A DNA stretch of 48,096 bases, taken from Candidatus Jorgensenbacteria bacterium RIFCSPLOWO2_01_FULL_45_25b. GTDB lineage: Bacteria; Patescibacteriota; Minisyncoccia; UBA6257; GWB1-50-10. Positions 3,855-47,892 of this stretch are shown piece after piece; within the stretch, counting starts at the first letter, position 1; each line of letters opens with the position of its first letter. Both the position numbers and the translations under genes were made by a program. The stretch covers positions 1 through 48,096 of the forward strand of contig MFKK01000013.1 of NCBI GenBank assembly GCA_001781035.1. Direction: 5' to 3'. The notes beneath the pieces were generated by a model. That model had not been told where the DNA came from, made no database searches, and was given only the letters and a program-made list of their open reading frames with translations.

Positions 3855-3978
3855 GCGTTCTGTTTTTCTCCTTCAGTTTATCGTAACTTACCAACTTATA
3901 AACTTGTTAACTTATCATAACTCGTCGTAACTTACCAACTTAAAACTTACAACTTATAACTTACAACTCATTCGCTCT

Positions 3979-6828: not shown

Positions 6829-7740
6829 CTACAACATCTCGGACAACTTGATAATAAGAGGAACAGAAAGATTCTGTGGACGAAGGGATGGATTAATTCC
6901 AGCTTTCTGAAGCTTCTTTATAATCCTCTCCTTGTCCATTTCGGATTTCAAATTTCGTGCTTCGGATTTTCTGCTTAAGAGCAGATTATTCAGTATCGTC
7001 TTTCTCGGCTGTTTAAAAAGCACGTTCACAAGTTTATAATATTTATCATTAATCTTTAGTCCTTGATCTTTAATCTTTAGTCGTATCACTGCAGAAGCCA
7101 CCTTTGGCGGAGGCTGAAACTCCTGTTTTGAAACAGAAAAAAGATATTCCGCGTCCGCCCAGTACTGCACGCACGCGGCAAGAAGGTTCATCCCGTTAAA
7201 AGCGGATTGCTTGAGCGTAACCATAGTCTCTATCGTCTGCAAAGAACGGCTTCTGGCGGGATTCATAAAAGGAGGCTTGGCGCAAACGCGCTCCGCCACC
7301 TCCTTCTGCGTCATAAGAACGGTAAGCGTTGGCTTGTGCTCTAATTCTCCGATGGTTCTAAGAAGCTTCCCCGTAATATAGTAAGGGATATTTCCAACGA
7401 GCTTGTAGCTTATAGCTTTCAACTTGTAGTCTTTTGAAATCTCGGGGAGAACTTTGAGCGCGTCGCCCTCAATAATAATGTGTTGCGCGTTTGAAAATTG
7501 ATGTTTGGAAATTGATTGAAAACTACTCGCAAGAGCTCTTGCGAGCCTCTCATCTTTTTCAATTGCCACAAATTTTGCAATCTTGAAATTTTGCAATCTT
7601 GCAATAATTTCTCGCGTCAAAGCCCCCCTCCCCGGCCCAATCTCAATAACAAAATCTCCTTCGGCAAGCTGAAGCGCGGAAATAATACGTTCTATAACCG
7701 TGGGATTCTTCAAAAAATGTTGTCCTAATCTTGCGCCCAT
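6829..7740 (-). CDS. rsmA: 16S rRNA (adenine1518-N6/adenine1519-N6)-dimethyltransferase KsgA/RsmA
   Basis: LGQHFLKNPTVIERI, VIEIGPGRGALT, LVGNIPYYITGKLL, MTQKEVAERV motifs; interrupted by a repeat-derived insertion. Confidence 0.93.
   Translation of the reverse strand: MGARLGQHFLKNPTVIERIISALQLAEGDFVIEIGPGRGALTREIIARLQNFKIAKFVAIEKDERLARALASSFQSISKHQFSNAQHIIIEGDALKVLPEISKDYKLKAISYKLVGNIPYYITGKLLRTIGELEHKPTLTVLMTQKEVAERVCAKPPFMNPARSRSLQTIETMVTLKQSAFNGMNLLAACVQYWADAEYLFSVSKQEFQPPPKVASAVIRLKIKDQGLKINDKYYKLVNVLFKQPRKTILNNLLLSRKSEARNLKSEMDKERIIKKLQKAGINPSLRPQNLSVPLIIKLSEML
7187..7266. mobile_element. 75-bp in-frame palindromic insertion within ksgA
   Basis: TTCAT at 7187-7191 and 7262-7266; ends ATCCCGTTAAAAGC / GCTTCTGGCGGGAT. 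Confidence 0.7.
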
Positions 7741-10390: not shown

Positions 10391-10422
10391 GAAAATAGAA
10401 GCGCCATTAGCTTCTATTTTTT
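10391..10422. terminator. hairpin GAAAATAGAAGC..GCTTCTATTTTTT
   Basis: perfect inverted repeat with flanking A/T run between convergently read units. Confidence 0.5.
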
Positions 10423-10476
10423 AGATTCTAGATTCTAGCTTCTAGATTCTAGCTTCTAGATTCTAGCTTCTAGTCG

Positions 10477-11841
10477 TCAGCTCCCCAACTTCTTCGCGGT
10501 CTCCTGAATCGCGGAATAATTTGTGCCAATAAGAAGATACGAGTCAAACCAAACATAATTTAAGGCGGCGCCCGACTGGGTAAATGTGGTGTATCTCCCG
10601 GAAGTTCCAATCACCTTTCCGTCCTGCCACATTCCGGTGCCTCCCGGAGAGGTAAGAAAGAAATTACCAAGCGTCGCGGCGTTTACAGTTTCAATGCGGG
10701 ACACGTCTTGTTTGGCGAGGACGGAATCTCCCGCGGAAAGCGCTTTCAACACATAAACAGGCCAGCTTCCTTGAGCGTTTGTGTAAATCGCGAGCGTAAA
10801 ATCCGTTTCAAAGTAAGAAAGCAACTCCTCCGTAAACAGTTCGGGAGAAATAAGCTTCGCGAGGCTGGGAAAAAGCACGGATCCCTGCGAAGTTTGTAGA
10901 AGAACCTCCTTTAAACTTGGAGTGGAGGCCGTCCCAAATCCAAGCGCGCTTCGGATTGAATTCAAACTAAGAGACCCGAGTGTAACTGGCGTACCAGCTC
11001 CGAGAGAACTTATCAGATAGGAAACGTGAGAAGGGCGAGTGGGAAGAGAGGGCTGTTGAGCAGAAGTTGGCGCGGGTTGAGAAGAGGTTGGAGTGATTGC
11101 GGGAACCAATCCATTAGCGGGCTGACCGTCCAAAGGAACCTCTTCTTGAACTTCAAGAGCCGGAGCTTCTGGGGGCGTAGGAGTTGTGTTTTCGGAAACA
11201 TCCGGAGGAGGCGTGCCATAAAAAAGAGGGAAAACAAAGAAATATCCAAGCGCGCCGGCGCCCACAACAACAATAATAGAAATAATAAGAGCAAAGAGCC
11301 CGCTCTTTTTAGTTCTCACCCCCTTAGTTTTAGAAGATAAAGGCGTTGTGGGAAGAGAGGCGGGTCCTGCTCCATTAGAATTTTGAGCGGAGGAAGACAA
11401 GGGAGAAGAAGTGGGCGGAACAGAAGAACCTCCCGGAGTTACAGGCTCTTCCGGAGTAAGAAACGAAGCGGGAAAGGGAGAAGAAGATGAGGAAGCTGGA
11501 ATAGTGGGCGCGGGAGGCGAAAAAGAAGGAACAGGAGGAGTGCTTGGCGTATATGGCTTCGGTGCGCCACCGCCACTTGTTTGCATTGAGCTAACATCTG
11601 AACCCATTGTACGAATTTCAACTTTCGGAGTGGACGAAGAAGCGCCTGCCGGAGAGAAAGGAGAGGCGGACGGAGTAAAAGAATTTGGTGAAAAAGATGG
11701 CTTGGGAGGGGTTGGTGCTAGTGGAGTTGGGGAAGAAACAGAAGAAGAAGGAGAGGTGGGAGGAGTAAATGGTGAGGGCGGGGTGGAAGAACCGCCTAAA
11801 TTAGTGCCGAAGCTCATTGGCTTATCGTTTGGTGTGTCCAT
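10477..11841 (-). CDS. Pro/Ser-rich N terminus, single TM, extracellular domain protein (unknown)
   Basis: ORF 454 aa; low-complexity P/S/T N terminus, TM ALIISIIVVVGAGALGYFFVFPLF, globular C terminus. Confidence 0.65.
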   Translation of the reverse strand: MDTPNDKPMSFGTNLGGSSTPPSPFTPPTSPSSSVSSPTPLAPTPPKPSFSPNSFTPSASPFSPAGASSSTPKVEIRTMGSDVSSMQTSGGGAPKPYTPSTPPVPSFSPPAPTIPASSSSSPFPASFLTPEEPVTPGGSSVPPTSSPLSSSAQNSNGAGPASLPTTPLSSKTKGVRTKKSGLFALIISIIVVVGAGALGYFFVFPLFYGTPPPDVSENTTPTPPEAPALEVQEEVPLDGQPANGLVPAITPTSSQPAPTSAQQPSLPTRPSHVSYLISSLGAGTPVTLGSLSLNSIRSALGFGTASTPSLKEVLLQTSQGSVLFPSLAKLISPELFTEELLSYFETDFTLAIYTNAQGSWPVYVLKALSAGDSVLAKQDVSRIETVNAATLGNFFLTSPGGTGMWQDGKVIGTSGRYTTFTQSGAALNYVWFDSYLLIGTNYSAIQETAKKLGS

Positions 11842-27644: not shown

Positions 27645-28550
27645 CTAAGAACTCAAACCGTTCAAAGTATAAAAGTTCTCCATAAGTTGTGCAACCAAGA
27701 TGGGTCCCGTTCCTCCCGGAGTGGGAGTATAGAAGGCGAGTTTATAAGTTGATAAGTTTGTAAGTTCCGAAGCGTCAAAATCCCCAGCTATACTTTCCCC
27801 ATGCTCGTCATATCCGAAATCAATAATTCCCGCCCCGTTAGAGGAGGGCCGCCCCTCGGCGACCGCAACCCTTCCGCTAAAAACGGAAGGGCGACCTCTA
27901 ACGGGGCTCGCGTTTTTCTTTAACATGGAAGGCTTGATAAGTCCTGCCTTCCCGACGCCGGAAATAACTAAATCAGCCTCTTTTAATATTGAAAGGTCGC
28001 TTGAAGAATCTAAAAGATAAAGTTCTTTTACTCTGCCCATAAGCCAAACGGAAATAGGCTTACCCACAAGAAGTCCAAGACCAACAACAGCAACCCTTGA
28101 AGTTGAAAGTTGAAAGTTGAAAGTTGAAAGTATTTTTTGAGTCGTGCCGACGGCGGGCGGCAAAACAAGGTTCCGTCCGGCATAAAACGCGCCAAGCGCG
28201 CGTTCTCCCAAAACATCAACATCCTTCTCCCGTGGAATCACGTTCAAGATGTAATGCCGATTCAAATGAGAGGAGAGGGGGAGTTGAACAAGCGCTCCTC
28301 CACACCGTTTTGAAAGCGCGACGCGTGAAATTTCTTTTCGCAGTTTGTCGTTCGTGATTTCTTTGGGATATGAATAAATCCGAAAATCAATACCGAGTGC
28401 CTTCGCGGTCTTTTCTTTCTGTCGGACAAAACTCGCGGAGGTCGAATCATTCCCGACCAAAAATACGGCAAAAAACCGCTTCGGCACGGGCTTTTGCTTT
28501 AGTTCCGCAATAATCTCTTCCGCAATTTTTTTACCGTTTATTATCATCAA
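27645..28550 (-). CDS. folD: bifunctional methylenetetrahydrofolate dehydrogenase/cyclohydrolase FolD
   Basis: GGALVQLPLSSHLN, IPREKDVDVL, PPAVGTTQKIL, VAVVGLGLLVGKPISVWL, YTPTPGGTGPILVAQL; contains repeat-derived insertions. Confidence 0.9.
   Translation of the reverse strand: MMIINGKKIAEEIIAELKQKPVPKRFFAVFLVGNDSTSASFVRQKEKTAKALGIDFRIYSYPKEITNDKLRKEISRVALSKRCGGALVQLPLSSHLNRHYILNVIPREKDVDVLGERALGAFYAGRNLVLPPAVGTTQKILSTFNFQLSTSRVAVVGLGLLVGKPISVWLMGRVKELYLLDSSSDLSILKEADLVISGVGKAGLIKPSMLKKNASPVRGRPSVFSGRVAVAEGRPSSNGAGIIDFGYDEHGESIAGDFDASELTNLSTYKLAFYTPTPGGTGPILVAQLMENFYTLNGLSS
27833..27906. repeat. palindromic element in-frame within folD
   Basis: CCCCGTTAGAGG .. CCTCTAACGGGG with inner CCCTTCCG ctaaaaa CGGAAGGG. 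Confidence 0.75.
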
Positions 28551-35084: not shown

Positions 35085-35657
35085 CTAAAAAAGAGAGGCT
35101 TGCGGAGGAGCTTTCGGCTCGGTAAACACAATCGGAAGCTTAATCATCTGGGGCATGTTTCGTTGAGGAATCCATAAATATTCCTGCTTTCGGATAAGGT
35201 CAAATATCTCTTTTGTAACTTTCACGTCCTGCAGGCAGTATTCTTTGAGTAAATCCAACTGACCCTCGCGGTAGAACCGGACGGCATCTAGCCCGGAGGC
35301 CGTCTTCCCCCCGTTATCTCCAAGATTAGCTTTCGCGAGAACATCCAGGCTAACGCGTCGTCCAAGTGAATTTTCAATCTCATCCAAAATATCAAAATGA
35401 GGAAGGGCGGAAATGTTAAAGGCATAATGCTTCTCTAAAATCAAAGCGTCAAAGCGCTTACTGCTAAATCCGACAAGAAGAGACCTTCTCGCCATCTCTC
35501 CGAACGCCTCAAGCTCGTTCTCAAAAAACGAAAAGTATTTGTTCTGGTCGTAGGAATAAGCGCAGACAATGGAAACATCAAGGTCTTTCAGGTGGTCTCT
35601 CCCGCCGACATCATCAAACGTATTCTTCGTCTCAATATCAAAAACAAGTTTATCCAC
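35085..35657 (-). CDS. DEDD-type 3'-5' exonuclease/RNase H-like protein
   Basis: LVFDIETKNTFDDVG, LLVGFSSKRFDALIL, YCLQDVKVTKEIFDLI. Confidence 0.75.
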   Translation of the reverse strand: MDKLVFDIETKNTFDDVGGRDHLKDLDVSIVCAYSYDQNKYFSFFENELEAFGEMARRSLLVGFSSKRFDALILEKHYAFNISALPHFDILDEIENSLGRRVSLDVLAKANLGDNGGKTASGLDAVRFYREGQLDLLKEYCLQDVKVTKEIFDLIRKQEYLWIPQRNMPQMIKLPIVFTEPKAPPQASLF

Positions 35658-35726
35658 AAAAAGAAAATAGAAAATAGAAAATAGAAAATAGAAGTGTCCC
35701 GGATTCTATTTTCTAGATTCTAGTTT

Positions 35727-36218
35727 CTAAACATAACGATCCGCTACCTTTGACGCGGCAAAACTCTCCGGCTTCGTTTTCGCCTCAAAGTCATTCGCGC
35801 GAATCATGCCGACCACCTCCTGAATCAGTACTTTTGTATTTCCGTTTGAGCCAACATCCGCGTGAATCTCAAAGTCCCAGTTGGTGGTATTGGTGGCGCG
35901 AAGCTCGGTTAAGATGATTTTCGCGGTATCAAGCGAAGCGACAACTTCCTGAATAATTCGGTCGCGAAGCGTATAGAATTTTCCGAAATCCATCCTCCTC
36001 CAAAAATACCGCCCGCCGTTTCCAACGCGATGCACAACGAGTGCGGTAACAAAATCCGCGCGATGCTCGTCAAGCGCCTGTGAATCGGTGCCGATAATAA
36101 CTTTGTATGAGTGTTTCGGATTCTCCTCAATAAAACGGACAATCTCTTGGATAATTTGACCAACTCCAAGCTCTATGCCAAACGGAGTGAGGAAGCGTAA
36201 TTCTTGAACCTGTTCCAT
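35727..36218 (-). CDS. YkuK-like (DUF458) RNase H-fold protein
   Basis: YKVIIGTDSQALDEHRADFVTALVVHRVGNGGRYFWRR...IHADVGSNGNTKVLIQEVVGMI. Confidence 0.8.
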   Translation of the reverse strand: MEQVQELRFLTPFGIELGVGQIIQEIVRFIEENPKHSYKVIIGTDSQALDEHRADFVTALVVHRVGNGGRYFWRRMDFGKFYTLRDRIIQEVVASLDTAKIILTELRATNTTNWDFEIHADVGSNGNTKVLIQEVVGMIRANDFEAKTKPESFAASKVADRYV

Positions 36219-41177: not shown

Positions 41178-41293
41178 CATAACGCTCATCAGAATACATA
41201 TAGAAAGGAGGCGTGTCAAACAACTGGAGCAGATTTATTTCCATTGAAAAAAATTTCTATAAGCTATAAGCTATAAGCTATAAGCTAAAAAAT

Positions 41294-41881
41294 ATGGTTA
41301 TCACATATCAAGGAGAAAACTACTTTCGTATTCAGTCGGGGAGCTTTACCGTTCTTATAGACCCGATAAATTCCCGCTCGTTCAAGGGAGCGAATATTAT
41401 TCTAAACACCCTAAAACCTCCGCTTGTGGAACACGGCGAGGAAGAAAAAGAAGAATATCTCTGGATAGAAAATGGGGGAGAATACGAAACGGATGGGATG
41501 CGAATTTATGGCTGGGGAGCGGACAATGAAAACAAAAAAACAGTAACGGCATATCTCTTTGAGTTGGAAGATATTCGGGTAGGAGTGTTGGGGCATCTTC
41601 ATCATGAACCAACTCCCGAACTGATAAGTAAGCTGGAAGAAATTGACATATTAATTCTGCCCGGAGGAGGGTCTCCGTATATAAGCGAGGCGAACGCCGC
41701 AAAACTGGTTCGTGAGATTGAGCCGGGCATTGTTATTCCCTCTCTCTTCACCAAAGAACCGAAGAAATTTTTTGCCGAGCTAAGCCAGTCGCCGAAAGAA
41801 GAAGAAAAGCTGGTGGTTAAGAAAAAGGATATTAAGGAAGAAGGCATGGTAATTGCCTACCTTGCGAATCCAAAACCCTAA
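41294..41881 (+). CDS. MBL-fold metal-dependent hydrolase-like protein
   Basis: MVITYQGENYFRIQSGSFTVLIDPI...VGVLGHLHHEPTPELISKLEEIDILILPGGG. Confidence 0.75.
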   Translation: MVITYQGENYFRIQSGSFTVLIDPINSRSFKGANIILNTLKPPLVEHGEEEKEEYLWIENGGEYETDGMRIYGWGADNENKKTVTAYLFELEDIRVGVLGHLHHEPTPELISKLEEIDILILPGGGSPYISEANAAKLVREIEPGIVIPSLFTKEPKKFFAELSQSPKEEEKLVVKKKDIKEEGMVIAYLANPKP

Positions 41882-42360: not shown

Positions 42361-44850
42361 ATGCCAAAAGCAAAAACACAAGAATCGGAACCAGAACCGA
42401 TAAAACGGGACGCGATTGAAACTCGTGAAATTACCGAAGAACTCAAGGAGTCGTATCTGGACTACGCGATGTCGGTTATCGTCGCGCGGGCGCTTCCCGA
42501 CGTCCGCGACGGCTTAAAGCCGGTACACCGAAGAATCCTCTGGGCGATGTGGGACATGGGGCTTACTTCGGGCACGAAGTTTGTCAAATCCGCCCGCGTG
42601 GTTGGAGAAGTATTGGGAAAATATCACCCGCACGGAGATATGGCGGTGTACGATTCCATGGTGCGAATGGCGCAGGACTTCTCGCTTCGGTATCCCCTAA
42701 TACAAGGCCAGGGAAATTTTGGAAGCGTTGACGGTGATGGAGCGGCCGCCCAGCGGTACACGGAATGTCGTCTCTCAAAAATCTCCTCCGAAATGCTCGC
42801 GGATATTGAAAAAGAAACCGTAAAGTGGAATCCAAACTACGACGCTTCGCGGGAAGAACCAAACGTCCTCCCCGCGAAACTTCCCAACCTTCTCCTAAAC
42901 GGCACAATGGGAATCGCGGTCGGAATGGCAACCTCAATTCCTCCGCACAACCTGGGAGAGCTCGTGGACGGCATCGCTTATCTGATTGATAATCCGGAGG
43001 CGACAATCGCGGATATTATGGAGCACATTCCGGGTCCCGATTTTCCAACCGGAGGGATTATGTATGACAGAAAAGCAATCGCGGAAGCGTACGCGACCGG
43101 ACGCGGAAGCATCGTGGTTCGGGCAGTCTCCGAGATTGAGGAAAAAAAGCAAAATAATTATCAAATCATCATCACGGAAATTCCGTATCAGGTAAACAAA
43201 TCCGACCTTATCATCAAAATGGCGGAGCTGGTAACGGATAAAAAAATTGAAGGGGTAAAAGATCTTCGCGACGAATCCGACAGAGAGGGTATGCGAATCG
43301 TGATTGAGACAAAAGCCGACGCGGAACCGCAAAAAATTTTAAACCAGTTTTATCAACATACCGACCTTCAGAAAAGCTTTCATTTGAATATGATTGCCCT
43401 TGTAGACGGCATCCAGCCACGCCTCCTCTCCCTGAAGGATATTCTTGCCGAATATATTAAACACAGAAAAGTTGTCGTGAAGCGCAGAACCGAATTTGAC
43501 CTGAAGAAGGCGGAAGATAGGGCGCATATTTTGGAGGGGCTTGTAAAAGCGCTGGATGTTATTGATAGGGTAATAGCGACGATTAGAAAATCAAAAGATC
43601 GCGACGAGGCGAAAGTAAACCTTGTAAAAACCTTCGCTTTCACCGAAATACAGGCGGTGGCAATTTTAGAAATGCGCCTTTCCACGCTTGCCGCTCTGGA
43701 ACGCGAGAAGCTGGAGGATGAGCTGAAGGAGAAGAAAAAACTGATTGCCGAACTCCAGCTTATCTTAAAGGAACCAAAACGAATTCTCGGAATCATCAAG
43801 CAGGAGCTCTCGGATGTTCAAAAACAGTTTGGCGACGAGAGAAGGACAAAAATAATAAAAAGCGGATTAAAAGAGTTTCGGGAAGAAGATCTTGTTCCCG
43901 AAGAAGATGTCATCATCACGCTCACAAGAAGCGGCTACATTAAGCGCATGCCCCCGGGAACCTTTAAGGCGCAAAGAAGAGGAGGGAAGGGATTAATTGG
44001 CTCGGAACTCAAGGAAGAAGACGTGATAGAGCATTTCACTTCGGCGTCCACTCACGACAATCTCCTCTTTTTCACGGATCGCGGGAAGGTCTTTCAAACA
44101 AAAGTATACGAAGTTCCGGTCGCGACTCGCACTTCCAAGGGCAAGATGATTTTCAACTTTTTGGACATCCCGCAGGGAGAGAGCGTAAGCGCGATTATTT
44201 CTTATTCCGGCAAAGAGGGTGATGAGAACAAAAAAAACAAATTCCTTGTGATGCTCACCAAACATGGTCTGATTAAAAAAACCGCCCTGGAAGAGTTTGG
44301 AAATGTCCGAAAAACGGGCATCATAGCGATTAATCTGAAATCCGAAGACGCCCTTCGCTGGGTCATGCCGTCCGGCGGAAAAGACGAGCTGGTAACCGTA
44401 ACCGCGAAAGGACAATCCATCCGATTCAAAGAATCCGACGTGCGTCCGATGGGAAGAACGGCCTCTGGTGTAACCGCGATTAAGCTGAAAAAAGAAGACG
44501 AGGTCGCGGGACTTGGTATAATAAAAGGAAATACAAAAGCGGAAGGAGAAAGGCGCCTGCTCATCGTAACGTCAAACGGATTCGCGAAACAGACGAAAAT
44601 TAAAGAATACAAAATTCAGAATCGCGGAGGGTCGGGAATCAAAACGGCAAAGGTAACTCCAAAAACGGGAATCGTCATCGCCGCGAGAATTCTTGGCGAG
44701 GAAGACGAGGAGATGATTGCCTTCTCCTCAAAAGGGCAGGCAATCAGAACCGAATTGAAAAATATCCGAGTCGCGGGGCGCGACACGCAAGGCGTCCGCG
44801 TCATGAATCTGAAGTCAGGAGACAAACTAGTGGGAACAGTTTGCTTATAA
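42361..44850 (+). CDS. gyrA: DNA gyrase subunit A
   Basis: [46 protein letters not shown]-terminal GyrA beta-pinwheel repeats incl. QRRGGKG. Confidence 0.94.
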
Positions 44851-44880
44851 GATTAAAGAGAAAGGATTAAGGATTAAAGA

Positions 44881-45285
44881 ATGCAACACGAAAAACAAGG
44901 AGAACGGGGACAAAAAGAAACATTGCACTCTTATAGAAATTTGCTCATTTGGCAAAAAGCATTTTTAATAGCAAAAGAAATTTATAAATTAACGGAGTTA
45001 TTTCCAAAAGAAGAAAGATACGGATTAATAAGTCAATTACGAAGAGCGGGAGTTTCGGTTGTATCAAACATTGCGGAAGGATTTAGTAGAAAAACAGAAA
45101 AAGAAAAAATACAATTTGCGGTAATTGCTTTTGGTTCGGCGGCAGAAATAGAAACACAGCTTCTTTTGGCGAAAGAGCTACAATTTGCCACAAAGGAAGA
45201 ATTTGAAAAAACAGAACATTTAGTATTAGAAGTAAGAAAAATACTAAACAGCTATTTATTAAAACAAAGACAAGTAAAACAATAA
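44881..45285 (+). CDS. four-helix-bundle protein (23S rRNA intervening-sequence/S23-like family)
   Basis: YRNLLIWQKAFLIAKEIYKLTELFPKEERYGLISQLRRAGVSVVSNIAEGFSRKTEKEKIQF. Confidence 0.93.
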   Translation: MQHEKQGERGQKETLHSYRNLLIWQKAFLIAKEIYKLTELFPKEERYGLISQLRRAGVSVVSNIAEGFSRKTEKEKIQFAVIAFGSAAEIETQLLLAKELQFATKEEFEKTEHLVLEVRKILNSYLLKQRQVKQ

Positions 45286-45323
45286 AACTCATTAATCCTT
45301 AATCTTTAATCCTTAGTCCTCGT

Positions 45324-46577: not shown

Positions 46578-46653
46578 ATAAAAGTCATACGCAGGACGTC
46601 GTTCATCCTTAAGGATGTGCGACATCTTAAACATTAAAGTTGTTATTTCAAGC

Positions 46654-47025
46654 ATGAAACGCATAATTCTTATTTCTCTTCTTCTTCCCCTCCTCACTCA
46701 CGCGAAACTGAACATAGACGAAAACTTCACGAATATCTGGACAGGAACGGGGGACTGCAACCTCTCAACCTCCAAAGTGGGCTGTACGCTCACGGATGGA
46801 TACGTGGTTGGCGCGAACATTCTGAAATTTCTTTTTGCTCTCGCGATTCCGATTACGGTGGGAATGTTTGTCTGGGGAGGGATTCAGCTTATGACCTCGG
46901 GCGCCTCGGGTGGCGACACGAAGAAGGCGAAAGAAACCATGAAAAACGCTATAATAGGGCTTGTGATAGCGCTCGCGGCAGTCCTCATTGTTAATCTCGT
47001 CAAAAAAATATTAACCGGAAGCTAA
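46654..47025 (+). CDS. VirB2/TrbC-like pilin-type membrane protein (copy 1)
   Basis: signal peptide plus two TM; GMFVWGGIQLMTSGASGGDTKKAKETMKNAIIGLVIALAAVLIVNLV. Confidence 0.7.
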   Translation: MKRIILISLLLPLLTHAKLNIDENFTNIWTGTGDCNLSTSKVGCTLTDGYVVGANILKFLFALAIPITVGMFVWGGIQLMTSGASGGDTKKAKETMKNAIIGLVIALAAVLIVNLVKKILTGS

Positions 47026-47065
47026 ACAGGATGTCCGTCCTTCTCGTGGAGGCCGGACATTCCAA

Positions 47066-47464
47066 ATGTTGAGTATGTATAAAAAAATTCTGATGATAAT
47101 GTTCTTGGTGACGGTTATGATTTCAAAAACGGAATCAATTGCGCGATCGGAGGGCACAAATACAGGCGGACCGGAAACAAGAGTAGACACAAGAGTTCCG
47201 GGAGCCTCAATAGAACTCCCCGACCCTCTGGGAGGCGGTACAATCATAGACCTGCTCCGCAAGATAGTTGATTGGCTTCAAAAAATCGCAAACCCAATCG
47301 CGGCAATTATGATTATCTACGGCGCCTATCAGATTCTTTTCGCGGGAGGAGAGGCGGAAAAGGTAAAAACAGGAAGAAACACCATTATCTATGCCGCGGT
47401 CGGATATGGTATAATTCTAATCGGATGGGGGCTGACAAGCATCATCAGCGAATTCTTCGGTTAA
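47066..47464 (+). CDS. VirB2/TrbC-like membrane protein (copy 2)
   Basis: IIDLLRKIVDWLQKIANPIAAIMIIYGAYQILFAGGEAEKVKTGRNTIIYAAVGYGIILIGWGL. Confidence 0.7.
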   Translation: MLSMYKKILMIMFLVTVMISKTESIARSEGTNTGGPETRVDTRVPGASIELPDPLGGGTIIDLLRKIVDWLQKIANPIAAIMIIYGAYQILFAGGEAEKVKTGRNTIIYAAVGYGIILIGWGLTSIISEFFG

Positions 47465-47574
47465 ATTAAATTAGAGAAATAAAAGGATGTCCGTCAATTG
47501 TACGGCGGTACGGCGGAGGTTCGACCTCCTAGAGGAGGTCGAACCTCCCAAACATTGAGTTCGTTAAAAAAAAC

Positions 47575-47892
47575 ATGCAAAAAAAAATAAAAAACCTCTC
47601 CATTTTTACAACGGCGCTTCTCGCCTCCATATACAAAAAAGCAGACGCCGCGACAGACAGCCTGGCCGATATTATAGGAATTCTTCAGAACGTCGTGGAC
47701 TGGGCGCAGGTATTTTTTTATGTCATCGCGGTGCTCTATATCATTTTAGGAGCCTGGGACTATCTTAATTCCGGTGGAGACGAGGGAAAGGTAAAGGACG
47801 CGAAAAACAAACTCCTCTATTCTCTGGTGGCAATCGCGATAGCGGTCATAGCCGGAGGAGTTGTAAATATAGTGGTAACTTTTGTAAACTAA
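47575..47892 (+). CDS. VirB2/TrbC-like membrane protein (copy 3)
   Basis: IIGILQNVVDWAQVFFYVIAVLYIILGAWDYLNSGGDEGKVKDAKNKLLYSLVAIAIAVIAGGVVNIV. Confidence 0.7.
   Translation: MQKKIKNLSIFTTALLASIYKKADAATDSLADIIGILQNVVDWAQVFFYVIAVLYIILGAWDYLNSGGDEGKVKDAKNKLLYSLVAIAIAVIAGGVVNIVVTFVN

Follow-up and report, generated by a model that had tools for sequence, protein, structure and literature searches.

The closest described systems are the IVS of 23S rRNA genes in Coxiella burnetii and Leptospira, which encode a protein of the same family (S23) as the locus considered here and likewise have a terminal inverted stem. The Coxiella IVS is 428-444 nt long, carries tandem heptamers (GACAGAT) of strain-variable copy number upstream of its ORF, and has been demonstrated to be excised by RNase III (PMC4990558). 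IVP ORFs also occur in 16S and 23S insertions of CPR rRNA genes, as set out in the available part of a study that was confined to rRNA genes and that, in that part, reports neither heptamer arms nor non-rRNA copies (PMC11270868). rRNA IVS and the S23/IVP protein have been on record for decades, yet neither their function nor the way they spread is settled.

Heptameric repeats, in turn, are more frequent in many bacterial genomes than expected, and no explanation for this excess has been accepted. Published excerpts on the cyanobacterial STRR, the Beggiatoaceae TAACTGA repeat and the Xanthomonas and Nostoc repeats GGGAATC and GGGGA(C/T)T describe intergenic 7-nt arrays near stop or start codons, sometimes inverted and in Xanthomonas mostly of four units, and make no link to IVP genes (PMC4679880, PMC2670836, PMC4692102). 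One repeat-flanked gene with many gene-less inverted derivatives per genome is also the arrangement of REP/REPIN sequences with RAYT and of MITEs with an autonomous parent; the elements described below differ in that the IVP is not a Y1 transposase, the ends consist of word arrays, not of one fixed hairpin, and the word varies between elements. Eukaryotic foldback transposons have long inverted ends built of short tandem repeats, a likeness that spans different hosts, and we know of no protein common to them and IVP elements.

A unit with inverted heptamer arms downstream of gyrA

The window analyzed here is a 48,096-nt stretch of the Candidatus Jorgensenbacteria bacterium RIFCSPLOWO2_01_FULL_45_25b genome (contig MFKK01000013.1). 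The gap between gyrA and the gene for an extracellular solute-binding protein (SBP) is 473 nt and is filled by a unit, here unit B, whose 5' arm abuts the gyrA stop codon (TAA, 44848-44850; Table 1). A preliminary description had reported inverted flanks around an ORF filling the interval at this position; the unit is real, and the coordinates given there were correct to within a few bases. The arms are inverted over 30 nt with 80% complementarity, including an 18-nt core at 94%, and the heptamer pattern GGATTAAGGATTAA, with one mismatch allowed, has five occurrences in the window, where 0.03 would be expected, and four of them lie inside unit B. Within the window, such arms would hardly arise by chance. 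Beyond the SBP gene, a row of three small genes for T4SS pilin-like proteins occupies 46615-47892.

Table 1. Window coordinates of unit B, its operon neighbors, unit A and two gene-less arrays with unit B or similar words
Feature	Start	End	Strand	Description
Unit A arm	101	140		Word CTAATCT/CTAAGCT
Unit A IVP gene	164	520	-	119 aa; same protein family, distant clade
Unit A arm	521	565		Inverted copy
Gene-less array	7045	7084	+	Unit-B-like word (TTAATCT)
Gene-less array	34146	34180	+	Unit B word (TTAATCC), single arm
gyrA	42361	44850	+	Upstream operon neighbor of unit B; final sense codons and stop align with relatives
Unit B 5' arm	44851	44880	+	GATTAAAGAGAAAGGATTAAGGATTAAAGA; 30 nt, degenerate array of heptamer GGATTAA
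Unit B IVP gene	44881	45285	+	134 aa plus stop; 23S_rRNA_IVP / S23 / TIGR02436, four-helix-bundle family
Unit B 3' arm	45289	45320	+	TCATTAATCCTTAATCTTTAATCCTTAGTCCT; inverted array of the same heptamer (TTAATCC)
SBP gene	45324	46577	+	Downstream neighbor of unit B; adjoins gyrA in the family

The ORF is a member of PF05635 23S_rRNA_IVP (E 6e-38, 129.7 bits, cut-off 33.8) and of TIGR02436 "four helix bundle protein" (121 bits, cut-off 24). Its solved homologues, 2gsc and 2rld, each have five chains per entry, which suggests a pentamer without proving it. Unit B encodes no transposase or nuclease, the IVP has no known catalytic domain, and phages gave no match for this protein. Weak matches to the bAvd and diversity-generating retroelement (DGR) Avd models, which represent the same protein superfamily, raise the idea that unit B is the relic of a DGR and its protein an Avd, a reading to which we give almost no credence. 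Both scores fall below their cut-offs (NF033474, 21.7 vs 80; bAvd, 28 vs 40), no reverse transcriptase is adjacent, and the reverse transcriptase (RT) matches of the source genome are on other contigs; the true Avd genes of the family adjoin RT genes, group apart in the tree and have no arms. Avd/DGR membership was rejected on the scores and the missing neighbor, and the armless Avd proteins beside reverse transcriptases serve as a natural negative control for the arm survey below.

Compared with an IVS, unit B has terminal inverted repeats able to form a long stem and lies between gyrA and the SBP gene instead of inside an rRNA gene. Members of its class lie mostly between genes, several to a genome, and have gene-less derivatives. 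Our search of open-access journal papers found no account of IVP/TIGR02436 genes outside rRNA with heptamer arms; the class is a variant of the IVS element, placed outside rRNA and far more widespread than in the papers found.

Empty sites in relatives and between strains

The preliminary description held that unit B was inserted exactly at the gyrA stop codon and proposed comparing the downstream junction in sister genomes. In 19 of the 29 other family genomes where both genes are readable together, the gyrA/SBP gap is at most 18 nt or the genes overlap, as against 473 nt here, and insertion at the gene boundary, directly after the gyrA stop, is borne out. Unit C, between ftsE and ftsX, gives a similar picture, with a gap of 467 nt here vs at most 22 nt in 24 of 29 relatives. 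The flanks are not the same in all relatives, as vertical inheritance alone would have it, and therefore unit B is not simply inherited in place; mobility is supported, an empty site in relatives being one mark of a mobile element. Unit B is thus no constant part of the gyrA/SBP operon. No target-site duplication is recognizable for it, because the relatives are only ~34-46% identical in the SBP protein. Other inserts, including gene-less inverted arrays, occupy the gyrA/SBP junction of L037, L054 and L055, and gene-less arrays occupy the ftsE/ftsX gap in a few relatives. At the gyrA/SBP junction of L048, L056 and L060 there is a different insert, a hairpin of the CCYGTTAGAA...TTCTAACGG type (108-143 bp).

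We consider it likely that unit B is a copy of a small mobile element, composed of one IVP gene and, as part of the element itself, inverted arrays of a 7-nt word, and acquired after the lineage split. Insertion at the gyrA/SBP junction would have taken place in the sense orientation, after this lineage separated from the rest of the family.

Cyanobacterial plasmids offer comparisons at the level of strains. A unit is present in Trichormus variabilis and Scytonema plasmids and absent from ~97% identical plasmids of Aulosira, Nostoc linckia and Fremyella; here, the empty site reads AAAAAGTAATTAACAAATAA and the filled site AAAAAGTAAT, element, GTAATTAACAAATAA, with GTAAT on both sides of the unit and once in the empty site. 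Similarly, TTCTA is repeated around the unit of Nostoc C052 and ATCC 53789 and single in empty plasmids. Both of these 5-bp sequences overlap the upstream stop codon, and such repeats are clear at these two strain-level sites only. In two other strain-level comparisons (Aulosira; Picosynechococcus cmr2/cmr3), the insertion lies at the end of the upstream gene and the array provides a new stop, with no clean duplication, with sequence replaced and with a junction that is not resolvable. At cas6/cas4, comparison of Anabaena 90 with Dolichospermum gave no clean empty site, other inserted sequence being present in Dolichospermum.

These comparisons bear on the view that nothing moves, in which the IVP gene belongs to the normal complement of its host and the arms form a regulatory or terminator structure of local effect, comparable to the cyanobacterial heptamer STRR hairpins. 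Heptamer hairpins of no assigned function are indeed known in operons (PMC2670836), and in Cyclobacteriaceae and Mucilaginibacter orthologous units have retained both site and word, meaning that some copies have long been inherited in place. We nonetheless judge this view improbable, because most relatives and some near-identical plasmids have empty sites, two of them with 5-bp flanking repeats on the filled counterpart, because related IVPs have related arms at unrelated loci, and because units have inserted in 16S rRNA as well as in operons of cas, cmr and acc genes. Among ten orthologous Cyclobacteriaceae units, arms fit their own partner no better than the arms of other species, and no arm-arm coevolution was seen at that scale.

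Arm words, array period and the IVP clade

More than 170 IVP loci were examined, and most have inverted arms of roughly 7-nt period with their own word. Arms were scored by aligning the upstream flank with the reverse-complemented downstream flank. Mean scores at 63 loci of the family were 17.1 for the inverted comparison, 10.9 for the direct one and 9.1 for arms of separate units. A set of 81 loci from across bacteria (Bacteroidota, Planctomycetes, Chloroflexi, Nitrospira, Halomonas and others) gave 19.0, 11.8 and 8.9, respectively, and a further 29 loci, some already in the earlier set, gave 18.3, 8.4 and 8.5. Autocorrelation is dominated by period 7, with harmonics at 14 and 21, in both arms and is absent in control stretches, and arm words agree at 5.7 of 7 positions within one unit vs 3.7 of 7 between units. 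Within operons, the units are mainly sense-oriented: both neighbors are on the same strand as the IVP gene in 99 of 133 units and both antisense in two. One IVP unit (L075) lies inside a 16S rRNA gene. Units also occur in CRISPR operons, at cas6/cas4 of Pseudanabaena and Anabaena 90 and at cas10/cmr3 of Picosynechococcus PCC 7003 (L311, L322, L324). Stop codons in all frames were rejected as the cause of period 7; the effect is weak in the 5' arm (1.87 vs 1.68 frames with permuted words) and nil in the 3' arm.

Four IVP genes are present in the 803-kb source genome, each between inverted arrays of a short word, and the words are CTAATCT-type in unit A, GGATTAA in unit B, TAGGC-type in unit C and one of 10-nt period in unit D. 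The contrast drawn in the preliminary description between the words of units A and B (CTAATCT/CTAAGCT-type heptamers vs GGATTAA) is therefore accurate, and the repeated architecture it noted extends to four units with four words. From this contrast, it had suggested a system in which each copy carries, or generates, its own word-array. The first part stands, as the arms belong to the element, and the second, that the word is made anew for each copy, does not. For units at unrelated loci, arm similarity drops smoothly with rising IVP protein distance, from 17.3 through 14.5, 12.1 and 10.5 to a baseline of ~8 (r = -0.40; none of 1000 permutations as strong), and the word therefore moves along with the gene and changes gradually within a lineage. 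Units A and B differ in word because their IVPs belong to distant clades. Nor is a word private to one unit, since tens of gene-less arrays in other parts of the genome are made of A-, B- and C-type words. By these measures, arms and gene are one traveling unit.

The same data make it very improbable that a new word is created at the target with every insertion, through templated slippage or terminal synthesis. Four words in four units of one genome would fit such a process, and between the near-identical Trichormus and Scytonema copies the length of the 5' arm varies by exactly two heptamers, a loss or gain which indicates that arrays expand and contract. However, related IVPs have words in common even where their loci are unrelated, and no words are shared by distant IVPs whose junctions are homologous (arm similarity 9.5 vs background 8.4), so that creation at the target is largely refuted by the arm-similarity test. 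Several junctions are occupied by IVPs of unrelated clades, as would be expected if tolerated sites receive insertions repeatedly. At one junction, which follows a cupredoxin-like gene, the IVP units present in different genera belong to several unrelated clades (L008, L012, L013, L020, L031, L076, L079, L085, L092).

Array period also varies with the protein. Period 8 is found mostly in one well-supported IVP clade (L016-L021, L067) and period 10-11 mostly in another, which contains unit D (L003) with L026-L028 and L072; most other arrays have period 7. On the family IVP tree, which was built from few columns and is unsure in its individual branches, the period requires six changes, vs at least nine in 2000 shuffles. 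That period follows clade is the strongest hint of a possible interaction between protein and array.

Gene-less arrays and a proposed mechanism

Gene-less arrays are far more numerous than IVP genes in the source genome, where, with genome-wide counts being samples or pattern counts, sampled heptamer array density is ~32 per 100 kb, compared with 6.8 in other IVP-positive members of the family and 2.3 in IVP-negative relatives. IVP-bearing genomes have 30 arrays in 440 kb vs seven in 298 kb in IVP-negative ones (p = 0.005), arrays thus being present, though rarer, in genomes without an IVP gene. Inverted elements of unit A type, among the tens of gene-less matches to its word, are ~100-200 bp long in those read and have the subterminal sequence CTAAACAATCTCAAATATCAAA ... 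TTTGATATTTGAGATTGTTTAG in common with unit A. They sit between ribosomal-protein genes and in the ATP synthase operon, and two (L226 and L232, on contigs C8 and C34 of the source genome) lie inside 16S- and 23S-like rRNA sequence identified by eye. Arrays of the B word are mostly single arms. Copy numbers for this word are based on sequences actually read rather than on the pattern count, as the reversed-pattern control gave more matches than the forward pattern, a result that probably reflects the likeness of the reversed pattern to the unit A word.

Some B-word arrays are apparently in frame within genes; GGATTAA arrays in apparent reading frames of asparagine synthetase, a Mur ligase-like gene and others (L255, L256, L258, L264, L265) seemingly add residues and recall the palindromic elements in Rickettsia genes. 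Elsewhere in the window, heptamer arrays of other words without an IVP gene lie at 3883-3973, 7400-7430, 10408-10477, 28095-28136, 35655-35732 and 41252-41297; a few of these are 8-nt arrays, and that at 35655-35732 is an inverted pair around a short spacer.

The abundance of gene-less arrays could mean that the arms are the mobile part, moved by a RAYT/Y1 transposase, a reverse transcriptase or replication slippage, with the IVP a passenger or non-catalytic helper. Such an arrangement would suit an IVP without a known catalytic domain in a source genome that has Y1 and RT genes, and solo elements are polymorphic between Nostoc plasmids, one of them inside an IVP gene. (This gene, in a Nostoc plasmid at L332 1031-1404, is interrupted by a gene-less element of the same word.) We find it rather unlikely all the same, since IVP-bearing genomes such as G010 (six matches) and G012 (three) have neither RT nor Y1, arrays are denser where an IVP gene is present, period follows IVP clade, and the subterminal sequence of solo elements matches that of IVP units. 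RT and Y1 transposase were each rejected as an obligatory same-genome partner, being missing from several IVP-bearing genomes.

At the level of sequence comparison, our survey shows that the elements are mobile, that the arms belong to the unit, that insertion is biased toward the sense orientation, that units of this class have entered rRNA genes and many junctions between cistrons, and that gene-less derivatives exist. Under the mobile-element reading of unit B, it would be a selfish element riding in operon transcripts. By analogy with RNase III in the known rRNA IVS, the arms may fold back in the operon transcript into a stem at which a double-strand RNase would cut the element out, and such excision would make insertions in operons and rRNA tolerable. 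The one line of support here for fold-back and RNase III trimming is the class-wide excess of predicted arm-arm RNA pairing (19.1 vs 11.7 with shuffled arms); unit B itself has 23 predicted pairs, within a shuffled-arm range that reaches 31, and so does not exceed all shuffles. The IVP protein, for its part, may bind the words of an array at intervals that its geometry dictates, which would explain why the period follows the protein clade while the word drifts.

It is possible, and we propose it tentatively, that these elements form a foldback-type class found throughout bacteria, whose sole gene encodes a non-enzymatic four-helix-bundle protein, whose period is set by the geometry of that oligomer, whose debris makes up much of the heptamer excess, and whose route of movement is an undescribed one, possibly through excised folded RNA or single-stranded DNA. 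If a protein-set period and an unknown joining route both hold, this would be a new kind of mobile element. Strain-level empty sites, a clade-dependent period and a protein family with two crystal structures provide handles for testing.

IVP elements appear to be a source of the unexplained heptamer repeats of many bacterial genomes, and the two puzzles would then be connected: at least in the genomes studied here, heptamer repeats are the ends, or end-only derivatives, of IVP elements, mostly between operon genes. A gammaproteobacterial genome with Xanthomonas-type (GGGAATC)n contains one IVP gene, apparently frameshifted, with GGGAATC arms, located between two genes named by eye as accB and accC. 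In the same genome, a solo inverted element of this word has the subterminal sequence GTTCAAGC in common with this IVP unit, and arm word and subterminal sequence together tie the heptamer repeats of Rehm et al. 2015 (PMC4692102) to IVP elements.
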